Of a stretch of DNA of 23,233 nucleotides, positions 3,035-13,727 are shown piece by piece (positions within the stretch are counted from its first letter, which is position 1; every line of letters starts with the position of its first letter). The stretch lies in IMG/VR virus record IMGVR_UViG_3300042321_000306, positions 1 to 23,233 of that record, one strand, 5' to 3'. Origin of the DNA: a virus. Under the pieces are notes generated by a model. The model ran no database searches and was not told where the DNA came from. It was given only the letters and a program-made list of their open reading frames with translations. A program made the position numbers and the translations under genes.

Positions 3035-3981
3035 CTACTTCAGGCGTAGCCAACTTTAACCTCGATCTCAACGAGATTGTTGAGGAAGCGTTTGAGCGTG
3101 CAGGCGGTGAGCTTCGCACCGGCTATGACTTGCGCACGGCTCGCCGCAGCATGAACTTGTTGTTCGCTGACTGGGGCAACCGTGGCGTGAACATGTGGAC
3201 GTTTGAGCAAAACGCCATCACCTTGGCTACTGGTCAGCCGACCTACGCGCTGCCTGACGATACGGTGGACTTGCTCGATCACGTCATTCGCACCAACCAG
3301 AACGTCCCCACCAATCAAGCCGACCTGACCATCACCCGGATCAGCGTCTCTACGTACGCTACGATCCCAAACAAGCTGATCACGGGCCGACCTATTCAGG
3401 TTTGGATTCAACGCCTGACTGCGTCGGACTCTGTGCTTGCCGGGACGCTGCAGGCGACCATACTGGCCACGACCACCTCAATTCCCATCACCTCGCTTGC
3501 CGGGGTGCCCAACGCGGGCTTCATCAAGATTGGCAGTGAGTTGATCGCATTCAACGAGGTTCAGCCCGCCAGTGGGGGCAACCCAGCACTGTTGTTGAAC
3601 TGCGCCCGTGGCCAAGACGGAACAACCGCCGTAGGCCACTCTTCGGGTGCGGCCATCACGTTGGCGCAGAAGAACAGCATCACGGTCTGGCCAACGCCCA
3701 ACCCTGGCACGACGTATCAGTTTGTGTACTGGCGCATGCGCCGTATTCAAGACGCTACCAACAGTGGCATCAAGACGTTTGACGTGCCCTTCCGTTTCCT
3801 GCCCTGCCTTGTGGCCGGTCTGGCGTACTACATCGCTCTGAAGATTCCTGATGGCATCCAACGCCTGCAGATTCTTAAAGAGCAGTACGACGAGGCTTGG
3901 ATGATCGCCGCAGGCGAGGATCAGGAAAAGGCAGCGGTGCGATTTGTGCCCCGGCAGATGTACATCGGGAGCGGCACCTAA
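3031..3981 (+). CDS. Head-tail connector / tail accessory protein with inserted beta module
   Basis: This 316-residue product begins in a 4-nt ATGA overlap. The N-terminal ~90 residues combine an alpha-helical start (LNEIVEEAFERAGGELRTGY, then helix AARRSMNLLFADWGNRG-like) with beta strands around TGQPTYALPDDTVDLLDHV. The C-terminal third has SITVWPTPNPGTTYQFVYWR and a helix-rich end (LVAGLAYYIALKI, RLQILKEQYDEAW). This architecture is that of podoviral adaptor or tail-accessory proteins (P22 gp4-like or SU10-like) that bind the portal and seat the tail. Residues ~136-210 look like an insertion between GRPIQVWIQR and the WPTP strand: a beta module with IKIGSELIAF and CARGQDGTTAVGHSSGA. A plain virion structural protein is the fallback annotation. 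Confidence 0.75.
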   Translation: MTTSGVANFNLDLNEIVEEAFERAGGELRTGYDLRTARRSMNLLFADWGNRGVNMWTFEQNAITLATGQPTYALPDDTVDLLDHVIRTNQNVPTNQADLTITRISVSTYATIPNKLITGRPIQVWIQRLTASDSVLAGTLQATILATTTSIPITSLAGVPNAGFIKIGSELIAFNEVQPASGGNPALLLNCARGQDGTTAVGHSSGAAITLAQKNSITVWPTPNPGTTYQFVYWRMRRIQDATNSGIKTFDVPFRFLPCLVAGLAYYIALKIPDGIQRLQILKEQYDEAWMIAAGEDQEKAAVRFVPRQMYIGSGT

Positions 3982-4410
3982 ATGGGCAACCGGTTTGCGT
4001 CAGGCAAGAATGCGATTGCGCAGTGTGACCGCTGCGACTTTCGGTTCAAGCTCACGCAACTGCGCAAGGAAGTTATCAAGACCAAGACTTACAACCTCTT
4101 GGTCTGCCCGGTCTGCTGGGACCCCGACCAACCGCAGTTGCAGTTGGGCATGTATCCGGTTGATGACCCGCAAGGCTTGCGCAACCCGCGCCCTGATCTG
4201 AGTTATGTGCAGTCGGGCAACACGGGGCTACAAGTCGTAGACACGACGGCAACCACGCAGGACGCAGTGGGTTTCCCGAGTGAAGGCAGTCGAGACTTTC
4301 AGTGGGGTTGGAATCCGGTTGGTGGGTCGCGTGGCCCCGATGCTGGGTTGACGCCAAACTACTTGGTGTTGACGGTTCAAATTGGTACAGTCACGGTTGT
4401 GACGGCATAG
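3982..4410 (+). CDS. Zinc-ribbon phage protein
   Basis: A 142-residue protein starting immediately after the previous stop. Four cysteines form two knuckles, C15-D-R-C18 and C42-P-V-C45, separated by a 23-residue loop, which is a typical treble-clef or zinc-ribbon arrangement. The motif DPDQPQLQLGMYPVDDPQ with L.NPRPD follows; this block recurs with the zinc ribbon in phage genomes. The rest (83-142) is Gly/Thr-rich with a hydrophobic beta end (YLVLTVQIGTVTVVTA). It lies between a connector gene and small basic genes, so a structural or assembly role is more likely than transcription control. No experimental function is known to me. Metal binding is inferred from cysteine spacing. Confidence 0.85.
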   Translation: MGNRFASGKNAIAQCDRCDFRFKLTQLRKEVIKTKTYNLLVCPVCWDPDQPQLQLGMYPVDDPQGLRNPRPDLSYVQSGNTGLQVVDTTATTQDAVGFPSEGSRDFQWGWNPVGGSRGPDAGLTPNYLVLTVQIGTVTVVTA

Positions 4411-4419
4411 GAGCGAAAA

Positions 4420-4614
4420 ATGGCAGGCGTTAAAGAAATGCTGAAGAAGCACATGGCCAAGGGCGCTGGTGCGCACCCTGATGCCGACGTGAAGAAAATG
4501 CGGGCGGGTGGCAAGACCAACAGCGACATGCTGAAGATGGGCCGTAATCTGGCCAAGGTCGCCAATCAGAAGTCGCCCGGTTACACCTACAAGAAGTCAA
4601 ATCGCGGAGGCTGA
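4420..4614 (+). CDS. Small basic hypothetical phage protein
   Basis: A 64-residue protein with Shine-Dalgarno TAGGAG at 4408-4413 and a 6-nt spacer. It has a helical start (MAGVKEMLKKHMAKGAG) and a conserved-looking MRAGGKTNSDMLKMGRNLA block. There are no cysteines, membrane segments or known domains. Composition matches the small Lys-rich proteins at 1757-3034, so it is probably part of the same functional group. Reality is supported by the ribosome binding site, tight packing and lack of a competing frame. The function is unknown. Confidence 0.7.
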   Translation: MAGVKEMLKKHMAKGAGAHPDADVKKMRAGGKTNSDMLKMGRNLAKVANQKSPGYTYKKSNRGG

Positions 4615-4615
4615 C

Positions 4616-4813
4616 ATGGCAACCTACAAGACTCCCAAGCCGGTGGCCACACCGGTTGTTGGCGCTGACGACATCAAGAAGGCGCTGCGCATGGACGTGT
4701 CCGTGGCCAACATGCACGCCAACGAATACAAGCCGACTAAGACTTCGGGTATCAAGACCCGTGGTAACGGCTGCGCTACCAAGGGCACGATGGCCAGGGG
4801 ACCGATGGCGTGA
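4616..4813 (+). CDS. Small basic hypothetical phage protein (KTRGNGCATKGTMARGP tail)
   Basis: A 65-residue protein with Shine-Dalgarno GGAGG at 4606-4610 and a 5-nt spacer, starting 1 base after the previous stop. The C-terminal block GIKTRGNGCATKGTMARGPM is a recognisable tail of small phage proteins; the 2013-2513 product contains a related GVATKGKTKGTMIKM. The N-terminal half (VVGADDIKKALRMDVS) is less basic. Its last 4 bases overlap the next gene (GTGA). The function is unknown. Confidence 0.7.
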   Translation: MATYKTPKPVATPVVGADDIKKALRMDVSVANMHANEYKPTKTSGIKTRGNGCATKGTMARGPMA

Positions 4814-5517
4814 ACTACACGCAACTCAGCAACGCCATCCAGGCGTACACCGAGAACGTGAGCAGCGATTTCGTTGCTCAGATACCCGTTTTCGTTCAAC
4901 AAGCTGAGCAGCGCATCTACAACACGGTTCAGTTCCCGTCCTTGCGTAAAAACGTCAAGGGCGTTGTGAGCATCAACAACAAGTACTTGTCGTGTCCCAC
5001 GGACTTTTTGGCTGTGTACTCGATGGCAGTCATCACAGACGTTACGGGCGGTGACATTGATACCGGCACGTACGAGTACCTGTTGAACAAGGACGTGAAC
5101 TTCATCCGCCAGTCGTATCCGTCCCCGCAAGATACTGGCTTGCCGCGTTACTACGCGCTGTTCGGCCCTACGGTGAATGGCAGCACCATCACGACCGAGT
5201 TGTCGTTCATTCTTGGCCCAACGCCTGACGCCAGTTACAACGTCGAGTTGCACTACTACTATTACCCGGAGTCAATCACGACGGCAAACACGTCCTGGCT
5301 TGGGGACAATTTTGACTCTGTGCTGCTGTACGGCTCGCTTGTTGAAGCCTACACCTACATGAAGGGTGAGCAGGACATGATCGCGTTGTACGACGGCAAG
5401 TACAAGGAAGCACTGGCCCTTGCCAAGCGCCTGGGTGATGGTCTGGAGCGCAGCGATGCATACCGCAGTGGCCAATCGCGTCTGGCTCCGCTGCCGCAGA
5501 ATAACGGGGTCAAGTAA
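4810..5517 (+). CDS. SU10-type head-to-tail adaptor protein
   Basis: A 235-residue protein translated from GTG 4810, with an AGGGGA ribosome binding site just upstream and a 4-nt overlap with the preceding gene. The order of elements is that of phage adaptor proteins of the SU10/gatekeeper type: helix-rich start (YTQLSNAIQAYTENVSSDFV), a helix with QQAEQRIYNTVQFPSLRKN, beta strands (KYLSCPTDFLAVYSMAV), and a long aromatic strand (VELHYYYYPESI) before C-terminal helices (LLYGSLVEAYTYMKGEQDM, KYKEALALAKRLGD). It would form a ring under the portal that bridges to the tail tube or nozzle. Its neighbours, a connector upstream and virion proteins downstream, agree. The adaptor class is well supported; the exact family is less certain. 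Confidence 0.75.
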   Translation: MNYTQLSNAIQAYTENVSSDFVAQIPVFVQQAEQRIYNTVQFPSLRKNVKGVVSINNKYLSCPTDFLAVYSMAVITDVTGGDIDTGTYEYLLNKDVNFIRQSYPSPQDTGLPRYYALFGPTVNGSTITTELSFILGPTPDASYNVELHYYYYPESITTANTSWLGDNFDSVLLYGSLVEAYTYMKGEQDMIALYDGKYKEALALAKRLGDGLERSDAYRSGQSRLAPLPQNNGVK

Positions 5518-6644: not shown

Positions 6645-6677
6645 GAGGCAGGCGGCAAGTCCGCCTGAGTAGCCATG
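6645..6677 (+). promoter_or_regulatory. Hairpin-bridged ribosome binding site
   Basis: No purine-rich Shine-Dalgarno lies at a normal distance before ATG 6675. GAGG at 6645-6648 is 26 nt upstream. Between them is a perfect 7-bp stem (CAGGCGG 6649-6655 with CCGCCTG 6661-6667, loop CAAGT) and no T tract, so it is not a terminator. When folded, the hairpin leaves only 7 unpaired bases (6668-6674) between Shine-Dalgarno and start. T4 gene 38 is a known case of such a structured spacer. Use here is inferred. Confidence 0.5.
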
Positions 6678-7604
6678 TTCGGTATATCCGCCTTCTCCGA
6701 AGCGCCGTTCTCCTCGCTTGCGGGGGGCAATGTCACGGTTGCTCTTACCGGGGTTTCGGCCTCCGGCGGAGTAGGCACGGTTGCCGAGATCAACAGCCCA
6801 ACCGAAGACGGCGTTGTTGCCTATGGTGCCGTTGGATCTGTAACACAGTCCATCTCGGTTGCACTCACCGGGGTGTCTGCGTCTGGTGAAGTTGGCAGCG
6901 TCGCCCAAGACAATGTAGTTGCCATCACGGGGGTTTCTGCCTCCGGTGAGGTTGGGACAGCAGTTGCTACACCGCTGATTGCGCTTACCTCTGTTTCTGC
7001 AGAGGGGTTTGTTGGTGGAGTGGACCCATTCCCCAACCCAGAAATCCAAGAAGTTCATGCAGATGGCTACCTTGGTGCTGTTGCGTCTTCCCATGTCGTT
7101 GCCTTAACGGGCGTATCGGCGTCGGGGGCGGTGGGAAATGTTCAGTTTGCCACCCCTGTTTTCCCAACTGGCGTACAGGCAGATGGCGCAGTTGGTTCCG
7201 TATCCGCCTCTTCGCGCACGGTTGCACTCACCGGAGTCTCGGCTTCTGGCGGGGTTGGTACTGTTGCGGCAATCACGTCCGAAGGCGAAGATGGTGTTGT
7301 TGCCCACGGCCAAGTTGGGAGTGTCAGTGGTTCTCGTACGGTTGCGCTTACTGGTGTTGGCGCATCGGGCGAGGTTGGAACCGTTGTCTTCCAGCTTCAA
7401 ATTACCGGCAATGAGGCAACCGGCACTGTTGGAAACGTGATAGGCGCACGCACCGTAGCACTTACGGGTGTTGGCGCAACAGGCCAAGTCGGAACGATGG
7501 GGCTGCGTTATTGGAGTCTGATTGATGACAGCGAAATCGCCGATTGGCAGAATATAGACACAGCCGAAGTTTCTGATTGGGAACTGATTACCACGGAAAC
7601 ATAA
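6675..7604 (+). CDS. Tandem-repeat virion protein (13 x ~20-residue VALTGVSASG.VG repeats)
   Basis: A 309-residue protein. Residues 1-18 (MFGISAFSEAPFSSLAGG) are an N-terminal cap of a type seen at the start of phage structural proteins. Residues 19-275 consist of 13 consecutive units, nearly all 20 residues long, with consensus x5-V-A-L-T-G-V-x-A-x-G-x-V-G-x-V. Residues 276-309 form an aromatic, acidic cap (YWSLIDDSEIADWQNID). The regular length, Gly at fixed places and alternating small/hydrophobic residues suggest a beta-solenoid or stacked beta-hairpin rod. No cysteines, signal peptide or membrane segments are seen. A fibre shaft or spike between tail proteins and the fibre cluster is the likely role, by inference. 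Confidence 0.75.
   Translation: MFGISAFSEAPFSSLAGGNVTVALTGVSASGGVGTVAEINSPTEDGVVAYGAVGSVTQSISVALTGVSASGEVGSVAQDNVVAITGVSASGEVGTAVATPLIALTSVSAEGFVGGVDPFPNPEIQEVHADGYLGAVASSHVVALTGVSASGAVGNVQFATPVFPTGVQADGAVGSVSASSRTVALTGVSASGGVGTVAAITSEGEDGVVAHGQVGSVSGSRTVALTGVGASGEVGTVVFQLQITGNEATGTVGNVIGARTVALTGVGATGQVGTMGLRYWSLIDDSEIADWQNIDTAEVSDWELITTET
6729..7499 (+). repeat. Coding tandem repeat, 13 units of ~60 bp
   Basis: Units by residue of the encoded protein: 19-36, 37-56, 57-76, 77-96, 97-116, 117-136, 137-156, 157-176, 177-197, 198-217, 218-237, 238-255, 256-275. Nine are close to consensus (ALTGVSASGEVG-like). Units 2, 6, 8 and 10 are degenerate and more acidic or bulky. Units 9-10 copy the pattern of units 1-2 (ASGGVGTVA..., then EDGVVA.G.VGSV), which suggests a two-unit block was duplicated. 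DNA identity between units is lower than protein similarity, so selection keeps the protein pattern. Confidence 0.85.
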
Positions 7605-7973: not shown

Positions 7974-8327
7974 ATGGCTGCGCCAAATATCATCAACGCC
8001 ACCACCATCACAGGTAAAACTTCTGGGTTGGCGGTCACCACGTCTGCTTCTGCAATTGTCAGTAACGCAGCGAGTTCCAATAAAGTATTGAAGATCAACG
8101 CCCTGTATTGCTCTAACGTAGCGGCAAGCAATGGTTGGGTGACAGTAGATGTCTTCAAGAACGGTACGACAGCGTTTGATATCGCATATCAAATCACGGT
8201 GCCGACCAACGCCACGCTTGATGTGCTGAGTCAGCCTGTGTATCTGGAAGAGAACGACTCGCTTCGTTTGACGGCTAACGCCAATACGACCATTGAAGCC
8301 GTCTGCTCCTACGAAGACATCTCGTAA
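7974..8327 (+). CDS. Small virion structural protein
   Basis: A 117-residue beta-rich protein with Shine-Dalgarno GGAG at 7964-7967. The pattern is INATTITGKTSGLAVTTSAS, then KVLKINALYCSNVAASNGWV, TVDVFKNGTTAFDIAYQ and DVLSQPVYLEENDSLRLTAN, ending AVCSYEDIS. This is the form of small cyanophage-like virion proteins with a jelly-roll-type ligand fold. The stop overlaps the next start in TAATG. It probably belongs to the fibre or tail surface. I cannot assign it to a named family with certainty. Confidence 0.75.
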   Translation: MAAPNIINATTITGKTSGLAVTTSASAIVSNAASSNKVLKINALYCSNVAASNGWVTVDVFKNGTTAFDIAYQITVPTNATLDVLSQPVYLEENDSLRLTANANTTIEAVCSYEDIS

Positions 8328-9223
8328 TGCCTGACTTTCCCTCCACCACCAGCGCCTACGGGCGGTGGAACCTCATGGATGTGCGGGATGCGCGCATGGG
8401 GGATAACTGGCCCGGAGTGGCCGTGCTCGTCAACTACCTTGTTGTCGCGGGCGGTGGCGCGGGTGGCCCTGGTAATTATCACTCGGGTGGTGGGGGCGCG
8501 GGGGGACTGCTAAGTGGTAGTAATCAGTCTTTAACCCCGGGAACCACCTACACCATAACTGTTGGTGCAGGCGGTACAGGTAACTCCTCATACGCCACGC
8601 AAGGTGCTAACGGGAACAATTCTGCGTTTGGCGCTATAGCGTCCACTACTGGCGGCGGCGGTGCGGGCACTTACGGCAGTGAGTCTGTTGCTCCGGGAAA
8701 ATCGGGCGGTTCTGGCGGCGGTGCGGGCAATAATAGTTATGGCAGTTTTTACTCGGGCGGCTCCGCAGTAAGCGGACAAGGCAGCGCGGGCGGTTCTACA
8801 CAATCCGCCGGCCCCTACTACGGTTGCGGTGGCGGCGGTGGTGCAGGGGCAGTCGGCGGCAGCGGTACCAGTTCAGCCGGTGGTAATGGTGGCAGTGGTT
8901 CAGCCTCATCCATTACAGGGTCAAGCGTCACTTATGCCGGTGGCGGTGGCGGCTCGGCATACACCATAACCGGCGGCAGCGGCGGCAGTGGCGGTGGCGG
9001 CGCTGCGGGGGGCACGAATGGTACTTCTGGCACAGCAAATACTGGCGGTGGCGGAGGAGCGTCGCAGTCTCATACGGGCGGTACAGGTGGGTCTGGCGGC
9101 TCCGGTGTCGTGATCATCAGCGCTTCTCAAGCGGCATCTGCAACGACCGGTTCTCCTAGCGTTACATCTTCCGGCGGTCGCACCATCTATACGTTCACAG
9201 CCTCTGGCTCAATCACGTTCTGA
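8327..9223 (+). CDS. Glycine-rich tail fibre / adhesin with FPS..SA tag
   Basis: A 298-residue protein. Residues 1-29 form a tag (F4-P5-S6, S9-A10, W14, L16, A22, G25, N27-W28-P29) shared in identical positions with the 9226 and 10950 products. After NYLVVAGGGAGG (36-47) about 220 residues are dominated by GGGG, GGSGG and GGAG runs, then GSGVVIIS and a C-terminal TIYTFTASGSITF. This is the glycine-rich phage adhesin type. In such proteins poly-glycine-II helices pack into a sandwich and loops carry receptor specificity; T-even gp38 is the best-known example. It probably binds a host surface receptor. The start in TAATG couples it to the preceding gene. Confidence 0.85.
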   Translation: MPDFPSTTSAYGRWNLMDVRDARMGDNWPGVAVLVNYLVVAGGGAGGPGNYHSGGGGAGGLLSGSNQSLTPGTTYTITVGAGGTGNSSYATQGANGNNSAFGAIASTTGGGGAGTYGSESVAPGKSGGSGGGAGNNSYGSFYSGGSAVSGQGSAGGSTQSAGPYYGCGGGGGAGAVGGSGTSSAGGNGGSGSASSITGSSVTYAGGGGGSAYTITGGSGGSGGGGAAGGTNGTSGTANTGGGGGASQSHTGGTGGSGGSGVVIISASQAASATTGSPSVTSSGGRTIYTFTASGSITF

Positions 9224-9225
9224 TC

Positions 9226-10557
9226 ATGGCCCAATTCCCAAGCACCACATCGGCATCAGACGTTTGGAGTCTGATGGATCAGTACCGAGCGCAGGCGGGC
9301 GGGAATTGGCCCGACTCGACTTCGTATTGGGTAAGCACCCTGACCGGCGTCCCCATCGGCCTCTACGGCAGAGGTATTGCTGTTGACTCTTCCGGGAATG
9401 TCTACACAGCGGGAGGTAACCCAAGTACCGCGTTGTACGTACAAAAGTTTAACTTGACTGGCGTTCTGCAGTGGCAAAAGCAGTTGGAATACTACGCAAC
9501 AGGATACGCCGTCGCTGTTGATTCGGCGTCGAACATTTATGTCTCATTCTATTATTCCAGCGGAAGCGGCGGCCTCGTAAAGTACAACCCGAGCGGCACG
9601 GTGTTGTGGCAACGGCAACTTGCTTCGGCCTATGCGGGATACGACTACGCTTACGGCATATCTACCGACTCTTCAAACAACGTCTACATTACCGGTGTCA
9701 CATATAACGGCTCCAAGTATTTGCAACTGATAGCCAAGTATGACGCCAACGGCAATATTCAGTGGCAAAGAACGCTTTCCACCACGAGCGGAAATGATGC
9801 TATCGCATATAGTGTAAAGGTTTCTTCTGCCGGAAACGTGTACACGGTCGGGTACAGCATTCAGTCCGGGACGTTTGATGTCCAAGTCGCAAAATACGAT
9901 ACCTTCGGCACCATTCAGTGGCAGAGGAGCATGGACTCTACGACGGAATGGGGGCGTTCTGTTGCTATAGATTCGTCAGAGAACGTCTATGTTTTTGGCG
10001 AAGGATATAACCCTTTTGCCTGCTTTATTCTGGCGAAATTCAATTCCAGCGGCACGCTCCAATGGTCGCGAACTCTGACCACGGGCACCACAAAGACTGC
10101 GCTTGGAGCCACCGTGGATTCAGCGGGTAACGTGTACGTAACGGGCTTTGATTATTCGACGCCTGGCATTCAGGTGCTTGCAAAGTACAACGATAGCGGC
10201 GTCATTCAATGGCAGCGGAGCTTTAGCAACTTGCGTGTCAGCAGTGCTTCATATAACAATTTGGCAATTGATTCCGCAGGCGTTTTACATTTAATCGCGC
10301 AGGCCAACATTGGTGGCACCGCCGCAGCAAATAACTCTGCAGTGATTTGGAAACTTCCGTCGAACGGTGGCAAGACGGGCTCGTATGCGGTTGGCTCGTT
10401 CTCAAGCACTTACGCCGCCAGTTCATTGACAGATGCTGCGGGCTCATTCACTGCCACAGCGTCGGGTCTGACTTCATCAGCGTCTTCGCTGACAGACACC
10501 GCGACGTCGTTTACGTCGTCAGACTCCACTCTCACCTCAACAACAGCATCCCTATGA
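9226..10557 (+). CDS. Tail fibre with seven-bladed beta-propeller and FPS..SA tag
   Basis: A 443-residue protein. Residues 1-29 are the shared tag. From ~48 to ~360 there are seven repeats with a D-S-x-x-N-V-Y core (IAVDSSGNVYTAG, VAVDSASNIYVSF, ISTDSSNNVYITG, VKVSSAGNVYTVG, VAIDSSENVYVFG, TVDSAGNVYVTG, AIDSAGVLHLIA). Six of them alternate with K-[YF]-x-x-x-G-x-[IVL]-x-W-x-R strands. This matches SBBP/NHL-type propeller repeats and predicts a complete seven-bladed propeller. Residues ~385-443 are a Ser/Thr-rich tail with strict 7-residue spacing of Leu/Phe. The likely role is a distal receptor-binding domain on a tail fibre. Start ATG 9226 is 2 bases after the previous stop. Confidence 0.8.
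   Translation: MAQFPSTTSASDVWSLMDQYRAQAGGNWPDSTSYWVSTLTGVPIGLYGRGIAVDSSGNVYTAGGNPSTALYVQKFNLTGVLQWQKQLEYYATGYAVAVDSASNIYVSFYYSSGSGGLVKYNPSGTVLWQRQLASAYAGYDYAYGISTDSSNNVYITGVTYNGSKYLQLIAKYDANGNIQWQRTLSTTSGNDAIAYSVKVSSAGNVYTVGYSIQSGTFDVQVAKYDTFGTIQWQRSMDSTTEWGRSVAIDSSENVYVFGEGYNPFACFILAKFNSSGTLQWSRTLTTGTTKTALGATVDSAGNVYVTGFDYSTPGIQVLAKYNDSGVIQWQRSFSNLRVSSASYNNLAIDSAGVLHLIAQANIGGTAAANNSAVIWKLPSNGGKTGSYAVGSFSSTYAASSLTDAAGSFTATASGLTSSASSLTDTATSFTSSDSTLTSTTASL
10423..10554 (+). repeat. C-terminal 7-residue repeat of the propeller fibre
   Basis: In the last 44 residues of the 9226 product, L401, F408, L415, L422, F429, L436 and L443 are spaced exactly 7 apart. Each but the last is followed by Thr and surrounded by Ser, Thr and Ala (SSLTDAA, GSFTATA, SGLTSSA, SSLTDTA, TSFTSSD, STLTSTT). 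There is one hydrophobic residue per heptad, not two, so this is not an ordinary coiled coil. A narrow beta-structured or packed tail is possible. Confidence 0.7.
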
Positions 10558-10946
10558 GCGCATACATCAAACTCTCCACGCTTGAGTACCCTCGCCATAT
10601 CGGGGATATCGAGGTTGATCCGGCAGGCATGGCGGACTACGCGCCCGTCGAGTGGGTTGACCCACCGAGTTTCAATCGGGATACTGAGCGGCTGTATGAG
10701 GGTGCTCCCGTGCAGCAAGACGGCCAGTGGCGTATGAACTGGGTTGTCGCGCAGATTCCTGCGGATGAGATGGCGACAAAGGTCCGTAAGCAGCGCGACG
10801 CTAAGTTGGCCGCGACTGACTGGACTCAGCTTGCTGACTCCCCTGCGGATAAGGCGGTATGGGCAACGTACCGTCAAGCACTTCGGGATGTGCCTTCACA
10901 GCCGGGGTTCCCTTGGAACGTGCAGTGGCCTACGCAGCCGGAGTAA
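10554..10946 (+). CDS. Tail fibre assembly chaperone-like protein
   Basis: I start at ATG 10554, in a 4-nt ATGA overlap with the propeller fibre; this gives 130 residues. Upstream in-frame codons are only reading through the previous gene. The N-terminal half (YIKLSTLEYPRHIGDIE, then YAPVEWVDPPSFNRDTERLY) resembles small fibre-associated phage proteins. The C-terminal half (RKQRDAKLAATDWTQLADSP, then WATYRQALRDVPSQPGFPW and VQWPTQPE) is the typical signature of phage tail-fibre or tail assembly chaperones: R..L..TDW, then YRQ.LRD and a WP..P end. Such proteins bind fibres and help them trimerise. It lies between two fibre genes, in keeping with that job. I am fairly sure of the C-terminal signature. 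Confidence 0.75.
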   Translation: MSAYIKLSTLEYPRHIGDIEVDPAGMADYAPVEWVDPPSFNRDTERLYEGAPVQQDGQWRMNWVVAQIPADEMATKVRKQRDAKLAATDWTQLADSPADKAVWATYRQALRDVPSQPGFPWNVQWPTQPE

Positions 10947-10949
10947 CGC

Positions 10950-13007
10950 ATGGCTCAGTTCCCGTCCCAATCCTCTGCGTCAGGCATCTGGACGCTGAAG
11001 AAACAGAAGCGTGCAGAGCAAGGCGATAACTGGCCACCGCTGATTCTTCCCGATCCATACTTTGAGTACGTCACGATGCTGCTCCCAGGAGACGGCACCA
11101 ACGGGGCGCAGAACAACACGTTCCTCGACAGCAGCACCAACAACTTCACCATCACCCGCAACGGCAACACGAGCCAGGGCACCTTTGCGCCGTATGGGAG
11201 CAACTGGGGTAATTATTTTGACGGAACCGGAGATTGGCTATCTTCGCCTACTAATTCGGCATTTGAGTTTGGTTCTGGAAACTTTACGATTGAGTATTGG
11301 TTTTATGTCAATCGTATACCGTCTGGCTCGGCAGTCGGTTTATTGAGTAAACGAGCAGACGAATCGATTTACGCTCCGTTCAATATGTTTTTGTCTGCAG
11401 GCGGGGTGTTAAACTTATATATGTCAACTTCTGGTAGTAACTGGGAAGTTGGCCCGCTTTCTACTACAGCTTTGGCAACTGGAACTTGGTATCATGTTGC
11501 TGTAACTCGTTCTAGCAACACCGTATATATGTTCTTGAACGGAACTTCGGTCGGTTCCACCGGAACGCTTAGCGGAGCGTTAGTGACAAATTCGGCGGCA
11601 TTGACAATTGGAGCAAACAGCGAATCCCCCGCTTCTACAACCAGACTCAACGGCTATATCTCCAATCTTCGGTTTGTTAAAGGCACCGCTCTTTATACTG
11701 CCAACTTCACCGTACCAACTTCACCGCTCACCGCTGTCACTAATACCTCGCTGCTGACCTGCCAAAGCAATCGCTTTATCGACAATAGCACCAACGCACT
11801 AACCATCACGCGCAACGGCGATGTGAGCATCCAACGCTTCAGCCCGTTCTCTCCGACTGCGCCCTATGCCGCAGGCACTGATGGCGGGAGTGGTTACTTT
11901 GATGGGAGTGGGGATTCGCTGACCACTAGCAGTCTGCCATCTTTCAATGGAGACTTTGATATTGAATTTTGGGTTTATTCAACCGCTATTAGCACACCGT
12001 TTTATTTGTACAGAAGCGGTGATGCATACCCACTTGTAAGCATACAAGTTTCTTTTAGTTCTGCGTTGCGTGCCGATGTTTCAACAGATGGGGCGACATC
12101 CACAACCTTGACCCATCAAAGTACAGCCGTGGCGGGACAATGGAATCATGTTGCGTTGACGCGCTCAGGAACTACAGTTCGTCTATTTTTGAACGGCGTA
12201 GTGTCCAGTTCCACAATAACTGTGTCTGGAGCGATATCAACAACAAGCGCTGTAACTTACCTTGGTACCGGCGCGGCATTGCTTACTGGCTACCTTAGTA
12301 ATTTGCGCGTTGTTCAAGGTTCTGCTGTCTATACAAGTAGTTTCACACCCCCTTCTTCGCCTGTCACAGCAATTACCAACACTAGCCTCCTGCTGAACTT
12401 CACCAACGCAGGCATCATCGACAACGCGATGATGAACAACCTTGAAACGGTTGGCGCTACGCAAATCAGCACCGCGCAGAGCAAGTTCGGTGGGGCGTCG
12501 ATGTTGTTTGATGGCACGGGTGATGTGTGTGTAACAGCAAACGCGCCCTGGATGAACTTTGGCACGGGTAATTGGACGATTGAGTTTTGGGTATACGCAA
12601 ACAACACCAGTCGAGCGGATGTTGTATCAAAAGGCTCAAGCAGCACATTTAACCCGTACGTTGTTCAGTTATCCGGTGGTCAAATAAATGTGTATTTAAG
12701 CGACAACGGGGCTGGTTTTTCGCTCGTAGTTAACTCTTCTGGATCAGCATACACCGTTGGGAGTTGGGTTCATGTTGCTGTTGTCCGTAACGGAAACACA
12801 GTAACCATTTACTCAAACGGGACTAATGTTGGGTCTGGCAGTTATACGGGGTCGCCCGCTGTGACTACAGACCCCCTATCCATCGGCGGCGCATCGAATG
12901 CGGCGTTCTCGCTCAACGGATACATCGACGACCTCCGCATCACCAAGGGCTATGCCCGGTACACCGCCAACTTCACGCCGCCGACCACGGCATTCCCGCT
13001 TCTCTGA
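10950..13007 (+). CDS. Tail fibre with three LamG/concanavalin-like domains and FPS..SA tag
   Basis: A 685-residue protein with CCGGAG at 10938-10943 as ribosome site. Residues 1-29 are the shared tag. Three LamG-type beta-sandwich domains follow, at about 88-254, 315-464 and 516-674. Each has the order YFDG[TS]GD, [FI]E[YF]W[FV]Y, W.HVA[VL][TV]R, [LS]NGT.VGS-like, and NGYI..LR..KG.A.YTA.FTPP. Linkers are D.ST..FTITRNG (59-71 and 278-290) and a different one (487-505). LamG domains bind carbohydrates in many phages and bacteria, so this is a candidate receptor-binding or cell-surface adhesion fibre. The DNA encoding domain cores is clearly less GC-rich than the linkers, which points to domain exchange. 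Confidence 0.85.
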   Translation: MAQFPSQSSASGIWTLKKQKRAEQGDNWPPLILPDPYFEYVTMLLPGDGTNGAQNNTFLDSSTNNFTITRNGNTSQGTFAPYGSNWGNYFDGTGDWLSSPTNSAFEFGSGNFTIEYWFYVNRIPSGSAVGLLSKRADESIYAPFNMFLSAGGVLNLYMSTSGSNWEVGPLSTTALATGTWYHVAVTRSSNTVYMFLNGTSVGSTGTLSGALVTNSAALTIGANSESPASTTRLNGYISNLRFVKGTALYTANFTVPTSPLTAVTNTSLLTCQSNRFIDNSTNALTITRNGDVSIQRFSPFSPTAPYAAGTDGGSGYFDGSGDSLTTSSLPSFNGDFDIEFWVYSTAISTPFYLYRSGDAYPLVSIQVSFSSALRADVSTDGATSTTLTHQSTAVAGQWNHVALTRSGTTVRLFLNGVVSSSTITVSGAISTTSAVTYLGTGAALLTGYLSNLRVVQGSAVYTSSFTPPSSPVTAITNTSLLLNFTNAGIIDNAMMNNLETVGATQISTAQSKFGGASMLFDGTGDVCVTANAPWMNFGTGNWTIEFWVYANNTSRADVVSKGSSSTFNPYVVQLSGGQINVYLSDNGAGFSLVVNSSGSAYTVGSWVHVAVVRNGNTVTIYSNGTNVGSGSYTGSPAVTTDPLSIGGASNAAFSLNGYIDDLRITKGYARYTANFTPPTTAFPLL

Positions 13008-13349: not shown

Positions 13350-13727
13350 GTGGCCCACTTTGCTGAGATCGGTCTGAACAACACGGTGCTTCGCGTCATC
13401 GTCGTGCACAACAACGAACTTCTTGATGAGCACGGTGTTGAGCAGGAAGCCAAGGGCGCAGAGTTCTGCCGCAATCTGTTTGGCGGCACCTGGGTGCAAA
13501 CGTCATACAACGGCAACAAGCGCAAGAACTACGCGGGTCAGGGTTTCACCTACGACAGCACCCGCGATGCGTTCATCCCGCCCAAGCCGTTTGCTTCTTG
13601 GCTGCTGAACGAGGATACTTGTCAGTGGTATGCGCCCGTTCCGTTCCCCACGGACATTGGGACGCCTGAAGCGCTCAAGCGTTATGTCTGGAATGAAGAC
13701 GCCCAACAGTGGGACTTGTTGGCGTAA
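13350..13727 (+). CDS. Conserved phage protein, MAHFAEI..NNTVLRVIVV type
   Basis: I choose GTG 13350 (GAGGAG at 13338-13343, 6-nt spacer), giving 125 residues beginning MAHFAEIGLNNTVLRVIVVH; the longer upstream frame lacks this pattern. Recognisable blocks are FCRNLFGGTWVQTSYNGNKR, NYAGQGFTYDSTRDAFIPPK and PFASWLLNEDTCQWYAPVPF, and the end is W-rich. This protein is common in T4-like cyanophages and other aquatic phages, usually beside tail-fibre or baseplate genes. Its function is not known to me. Relatives are listed as virion or hypothetical proteins. Conserved aromatic pairs suggest a compact beta fold that might bind a sugar or another fibre protein. Confidence 0.8.
   Translation: MAHFAEIGLNNTVLRVIVVHNNELLDEHGVEQEAKGAEFCRNLFGGTWVQTSYNGNKRKNYAGQGFTYDSTRDAFIPPKPFASWLLNEDTCQWYAPVPFPTDIGTPEALKRYVWNEDAQQWDLLA

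Follow-up and report, generated by a model that had tools for sequence, protein, structure and literature searches.

Tailspikes and other receptor-binding proteins of the Ackermannviridae and of Klebsiella phages are described, in the accessible parts of the reports, as joining a conserved N-terminal attachment region to exchangeable specificity parts, with several such proteins per virion (PMC11414711, PMC8262889). In cyanophage Pam3, the accessible text presents gp24, whose chaperone is gp25, as a homotrimer in which an N-terminal bundle docks the fibre and the distal part is the proposed receptor binder (PMC9608196). Two other systems build trimers from three adjacent genes, as far as the available portions of their reports go. 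The products of three consecutive related tail genes of virophage DSLV2 form a 1:1:1 heterotrimer, shown by co-purification (PMC12724248), and gp35, gp36 and gp37 of mycobacteriophage Mysterious form a heterotrimer in the tail baseplate (preprint PMC13252515). Here we analyze a viral contig from IMG/VR (IMGVR_UViG_3300042321_000306, positions 1 to 23,233; this whole stretch of 23,233 bases is referred to as the window) in which the products of three neighboring genes, starting at 8327, 9226 and 10950, begin with the same 29-residue tag and continue into unrelated distal domains. Other window genes match phage head, tail and lysis families, which identifies the source as a tailed phage.

By distal fold, the closest described fibre is Pam3 gp24, whose Gly-rich distal domain (PF21722) shares its fold with that of the 8327 product. 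The N-terminal part of Pam3 gp24 is much longer, the match beginning at residue 95–96 in Pam3 and at residue 31 in the 8327 product. The 8327 product lacks a long helical docking bundle of the Pam3 type, as only some 30 residues with one predicted helix (16–25) precede its domain, and Pam3 gp24 is a homotrimer of one gene product rather than a triad of tag classes. Chain Q of the mycobacteriophage Bxb1 tail tip resembles the 8327 product in the fold of the body; the matched region begins at model residue 30 and leaves the tag out. The likeness to DSLV2 and Mysterious lies in three neighboring genes whose products have related assembly parts, in distinct classes that are maintained together. 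DSLV2, however, is a virophage whose three proteins each contain a T4 gp37-like collar domain (PF07484) and similar heads, and neither a short tag nor unrelated distal folds are seen in the accessible part of that report. At E 0.05, Pfam gives no PF07484 match for any of the three window proteins. The Mysterious trimer is held by a β-sandwich-like domain with β-hairpin arms rather than by a short tag, and the available text of the preprint does not describe exchangeable heads.

Near-identical N-terminal parts followed by unrelated distal domains, as in the loci L136 and L140 discussed below, make loci of the window's kind resemble modular receptor-binding proteins. The anchors of Ackermannviridae and Klebsiella phages are larger domains. 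No matched triad of short tags is seen among these anchors in the accessible parts of the reports. Our literature search, which most subscription journals lay outside, found no description of this tag. Nor does a short matched tag triad with heads of unrelated folds appear in the available parts of related work, including PMC10966104, PMC10811340, PMC13033339 and PMC13243795. Heterotrimers from three adjacent genes have already been published; a matched triad of tags that bears unrelated heads would be a novel version of that arrangement.

The tag and the distal domains in the window

The three ATG-started open reading frames lie on the + strand at 8327 (298 residues), 9226 (443 residues) and 10950 (685 residues). 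Residues 1–29 of their products align without a gap, just as the earlier note on this DNA had read them, with 13 invariant positions (M1, F4, P5, S6, S9, A10, W14, L16, A22, G25, N27, W28 and P29). The tags span 8327–8413, 9226–9312 and 10950–11036 (all + strand) and are assigned, from their relatives, to classes A, B and C, respectively. Compared with the 9226 copy, the other two are 62% and 59% identical. A 31-residue query from the 9226 copy finds three places only in the window's record, the others at E 8.6e-10 and 8.0e-8; these values, together with the 13 invariant positions, rule out a chance resemblance. The three tag DNAs are absent among direct repeats of at least 24 nt in 8280–11100, so the likeness is kept at the protein level. 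A fresh duplication or a switching repeat was also rejected, as that interval contains no such tag repeats and the window contains no inverted repeats of at least 40 nt.

Pfam bears out that the distal parts differ, which the same note had claimed. On the + strand, the class A protein continues as a Gly-rich adhesin domain (8414–9223; Gly_rich_2, E 2.2e-20), the class B protein as an SBBP-type β-propeller with a Ser/Thr-rich C-terminal tail (9313–10557; SBBP, E 3.4e-23, with 38-nt repeats) and the class C protein as three LamG (ConA-like lectin) domains (11037–13007; Laminin_G_3, E 3.4e-56, in three stretches). Counted by eye in the translation, the 9226 product has seven SBBP repeats, two of them imperfect. 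Behind these repeats, 10405–10557 encodes a repetitive Ser/Thr/Ala-rich tail.

In an AlphaFold2 model of the 8327 protein, based on a 52-row alignment, the predicted local distance difference test score (pLDDT) is at least 90 at 229 of 298 residues. Residues 1–30 form a low-confidence segment (mean pLDDT of 48, 68 and 66 per ten residues) with a helix at 16–25. The best fold match of the body is the Bxb1 tail tip chain Q (PDB 9D93; Z 13.8, 3.2 Å over 170 residues), and the Pam3 fibre matches at Z 12.9 (3.2 Å, 171 residues) and 12.4 (PDB 7YPX and 7YFW). Because these matches begin at model residue 30–31, the tag is not part of that distal fold. In this product, whose distal fold is the only one predicted, the model places the tag as a separate element outside the body, against the possibility that the tag is simply a piece of each distal fold, which the earlier note had named as a ground for refutation. 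A seven-row tag profile finds no solved structure with the tag at E up to 5, and a profile of the Gly-rich relatives finds none at 0.01. Monobodies, the sole listed matches in a phmmer search with the 8327 protein (best E 0.00096), were taken as composition matches and set aside.

Tag number and tag classes across loci

We surveyed the tag by scanning viral contigs four times with tag profiles, one scan giving the best 80 of 106 relatives, and by an iterated profile search. Tags at E <1e-4 occur in 185 loci, from which we took 78 non-redundant representatives, excluding L001–L003, which are parts of the window itself, any tag hit with E ≥1e-4 and loci that repeat the tags of another. Three tagged genes are present in 43 representatives, two in 7 and one in 28, and none has more; the one-tag group includes contig-end fragments, and some of the low numbers are due to contig ends. 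Among the 55 loci bounded by both usual neighbors (a homolog of the 7974 gene upstream and of the PHROG 7759 gene downstream, described below), 38 have three tags, 3 have two, 14 have one and none has more. In 5 of the 38 bounded triads, the downstream neighbor sits between the second and third tagged genes. Five whole triad contigs (50–109 kb) carry exactly three tags each at E 0.01 with a three-row profile of the window tags. A strict 'one or three' rule was discarded, since bounded two-tag loci occur.

A second sampling, by homologs of the 7974 protein rather than by the tag, comprised 80 viral loci (the best 80 of at least 544) and 6 genome loci. No tag was detected in 32 of these 86 loci, one in 36, two in 7 and three in 11, a tally corrected for L237, whose spurious third hit moves the three-tag count from 12 to 11 and the two-tag count from 6 to 7. 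With a wider profile the untagged loci fall to 16 of 86, an approximate figure that covers the first 140 residues per frame, loses one L244 tag, counts two hits in one frame of L206 and includes three L272 hits of which two are weak. Many proteins of this wider set start with a GG-x-IG-P-like lead ahead of the motif. The L272 locus, on an Epulopiscium single-cell contig far from the other sources of the tag family, has three frames of ~600 residues with tag-like starts (one strong, two weak) downstream of a 7974-type gene. In L268, on a contig of a Comamonadaceae metagenome-assembled genome, two tagged genes lie between both usual neighbors, and the bacterial bin hints at the host.

In Pelagibacter phage HTVC033P (L067), gp62 (3152–4891) and gp64 (819–2615) carry the tag core between two Gly-rich domains; one of these cores looks basic and the other acidic. 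Phage DSL-LC04 has two tagged proteins, in a set of 18; in both, the motif falls within residues 1–41. Searches of cultured phages with the tag alone gave only weak matches (23 records at E 0.9 to 10, T4-like distal-fibre hits being among the tag-alone matches, and one more at 7), and a 47-residue query gave no cultured-phage match. The Melnitz-1 region matches the tag profile only partially and weakly, and the proteins of cyanophages S-SKS1 and Bellamy, scanned for the tag, show weak or no hits.

To assign classes, we matched the three tags of each complete triad to the window A, B and C tags by summed BLOSUM score. Of 42 complete triads (L019 was omitted because its contig ends within the third tag), 35 match at a margin of at least 25 and seven at 0 to 11. 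The labels were set from this matching after its margins were known, and the seven non-canonical triads are left out of the class statistics, the distal tallies and the tree. Gene order in the 35 canonical triads is ABC in 24, CBA in 5, and BAC and ACB in 3 each. Because the matching yields one of each class by construction, we called the classes separately, tag by tag, with profiles trained without loci of ≥70% identity. One of each was recovered in 32 of 35 triads, and in 27 of 35 at a 62% cut (chance, 2/9).

In a poorly resolved maximum-likelihood tree of 116 tags over 26 columns, which omits two-tag loci, the class label of the canonical tags requires 2 changes (the minimum possible) and the locus label 88. 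With the single tags as a fourth group, class A needs 4 changes and classes B and C need 2 each. As the class labels derive from similarity, the tree serves as a consistency check; the figures of 2 and 88 indicate that the classes predate most of the divergence among these loci. Since the classes arose, gene order has changed more than composition.

The classes also differ in residues and charge. Class A favors A-Y-G-x-W, with R20 in 35 of 35 triads and D21 in 31; class B favors A-S-D-x-W, with D18 in all 35 and Y20 in 33; and class C has K17 in 33 and R21 in 34. Mean net charge is −0.1 for A, −2.1 for B and +2.8 for C, and the 28 single tags average 0.14; charges that differ by class would suit a mixed bundle. 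The tags form three paralogous classes, A, B and C, with one of each in most triads.

Distal heads and neighboring genes

We assigned distal kinds by motif in the canonical proteins, leaving aside one class C protein whose distal part is short. Class A proteins (n = 35) carry Gly-rich (27), Fn3 plus Gly-rich (5), LamG (2) and other (1) distal parts. The class B counts (n = 35) are Gly-rich 28, Fn3 plus Gly-rich 5, LamG 1 and propeller 1, and those of class C (n = 34) are Gly-rich 17, LamG 10 and Fn3 plus Gly-rich 7. Pfam scans of ten such proteins confirm fn3, Gly_rich_2, ALK_LTK_GRD and LamG. For the 'other' class A protein, in L181, Pfam gives a sub-threshold hit to a 7-bladed Lactonase (E 4.8e-4), and in L069, called Fn3 plus Gly-rich by motif, Pfam shows only fn3. 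The relatives thus carry the tag before Gly-rich, Fn3, LamG and propeller-type domains, whereas attachment to a single domain type would have spoken against the earlier note's idea of a shared tag.

All 64 tag pairs that are at least 93% identical join tags of the same class, and in 46 of them distal identity is below 60%. One such case is L136 and L140, whose identical C tags lead into a Gly-rich head in the former and a LamG head in the latter; in 30-base windows, their DNA identity falls from 1.0 to about 0.3 where the tag ends. The distal head is exchanged at the tag end. A further distal type with an FTSIPQxYxxL motif (L144, 3496–4508; L099, 8001–8612) stands behind tags; in L144 it also makes up two genes that lack a tag and lie between the tagged pair. 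These L099 and L144 domains have no PHROG match at 0.001.

Directly upstream of the tagged genes, 7974–8327 (+ strand) encodes a 117-residue β-sandwich (jelly-roll-like) protein, a probable adaptor. A homolog is present in 75 of the 78 loci. It precedes the tagged genes in all of these but L179, which has it between two tagged genes; where no homolog is present (three loci), the available stretch ends 110 to 1,610 bases from the start of the first tag. In the 55 bounded loci, this gene ends 0–14 bases before the first tagged gene, and one-tag and three-tag loci alike have a single copy. AlphaFold2 predicts an all-β protein, a confident β sandwich with a mean pLDDT of 92.8. The model resembles several jelly-roll-type proteins, with many folds at Z 7–10, including a trimeric phage cement protein (Z 9.0), and no family is decisive.

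The usual downstream neighbor is the PHROG 7759 gene (13350–13727, + strand; E 3.1e-43), whose start is uncertain, with a possible GTG at 13350; homologs of it occur in 61 of the 78 loci. A tail-fibre assembly chaperone-like gene (10554–10946, + strand; Phage_tail_APC, PF16778, E 1.1e-23, with the ATG read at 10554) lies between the second and third tagged genes, where the earlier note had seen it. Its homologs occur in 4 of the 78 loci, the window included, and the gene is therefore a local feature and no constant part of the module. Elsewhere in the window, 6675–7604 encodes a protein of repeated VALTGVSASG-x-VG units, with five 49-nt copies at 60–303-base spacing.

One assembly or separate fibres

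We propose that the 29-residue tag serves tail adhesins as a stem for docking and assembly, existing in paralogous versions A, B and C, and that a typical phage of this group makes one adhesin with each. The three stems would most likely associate 1:1:1 as a heterotrimer and attach to the tail as one unit, probably through the 117-residue β-sandwich protein encoded just upstream, so that the three adhesins may be present on a virion simultaneously. In phages that have only one tagged gene, the stem would be homotrimeric. Exchange of the putative receptor-binding heads by recombination at the tag end would give one tip with different head types. We put the probability of this reading, comprising the stem, the 1:1:1 assembly, the adaptor and head exchange at the tag end, at about 0.48. 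The published heterotrimers from three adjacent genes are precedents for such an assembly. The ceiling of three tags, the composition kept despite changes in order and the one adaptor gene of both one-tag and three-tag loci favor a heterotrimer over three separate fibres. In the earlier note, one tag had been offered as a dock for alternative or simultaneous adhesins: simultaneous assembly fits these data, the three tags are not one interchangeable tag and alternative use is disfavored, as the three classes usually occur one of each. A fuller account is more tentative, somewhat short of even odds: an obligate A:B:C stem would present three adhesins, of unrelated folds in the window, on one tip. 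It would have evolved through an ancient triplication of a single-gene, homotrimeric stem, and swapping of heads behind each stem class would give combinatorial three-headed receptor recognition in environmental phages.

Several observations weigh against the heterotrimer. The fibre nearest in distal fold, that of Pam3, is homotrimeric in the accessible text (PMC9608196). Bounded loci with two tags are L175, L165 and L167 and, from the sampling by 7974 homologs, L202, L206 and L268. In that sampling one tagged gene is the commonest state and pairs are present as well, so the tag belongs to a broader family of which the triads are one branch. Seven complete triads in three lineages lack a clear A/B/C fit. 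The tag-by-tag calls fail at a 55% cut (5 of 35), which leaves a median of one locus for training, and among the ten most divergent triads tag matching is only weakly transitive (0.475; under shuffling, mean 0.29 and maximum 0.53). Summed triad charge is no less variable than under shuffled pairing (P 0.12 to 0.94 in eight settings, with 35 related triads, too few for a proper covariation test), so charge lends no covariation support. LamG leans to class C (10 of 34, versus 3 of 70 in A and B together), which makes head exchange wide but uneven. The two-tag loci, the non-canonical triads, the negative covariation result and the homotrimeric Pam3 fibre keep alive a reading in which each tag forms its own homotrimer or monomer at its own tail site, the classes having diverged as the sites differ. 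Several receptor-binding proteins per virion are common, and Pam3 gp24, with the same distal domain type, trimerizes with an N-terminal docking bundle of its own in the accessible account (PMC9608196). We consider separate fibres less likely than the heterotrimer: they need an extra reason both for the ceiling of three in all loci examined and for a composition kept while order changes, and they sit poorly with the same single 7974-type neighbor in one-tag and three-tag loci.

Two further readings carry little weight. That the tag is mainly a recombination arm for head swaps or a chaperone recognition signal, and not a docking element, would fit the stop of L136/L140 homology at the tag end and the chaperone-like gene between two tagged genes of the window. 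Yet the window tags are kept as protein while their DNA has diverged, class-specific residues persist across loci and the chaperone gene has homologs in so few of them; moreover, the core in HTVC033P gp62 and gp64 lies between two Gly-rich domains, away from the gene start. We regard this reading as quite improbable. Very improbable, in turn, is competition of the three proteins for one site, with one type per virion in a mixed population. The docking motif common to all three would allow it, but one-site competition does not require systematic class differences or triads that mostly hold one of each, and the lack of inverted repeats of at least 40 nt leaves the window with no sign of an inversion switch.

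If the 1:1:1 stem is correct, a phage tail tip would show unrelated binding folds at once by means of a 29-residue code that sets the partner of each arm, which would explain how heads change in these phages without broken assembly. It would also make testable how a homotrimeric fibre, once its gene is tripled, turns into an obligate heterotrimer, since public data contain this locus in one-, two- and three-gene form. The tag classes would then provide an annotation rule for environmental-phage adhesin genes that are now without an assigned function.

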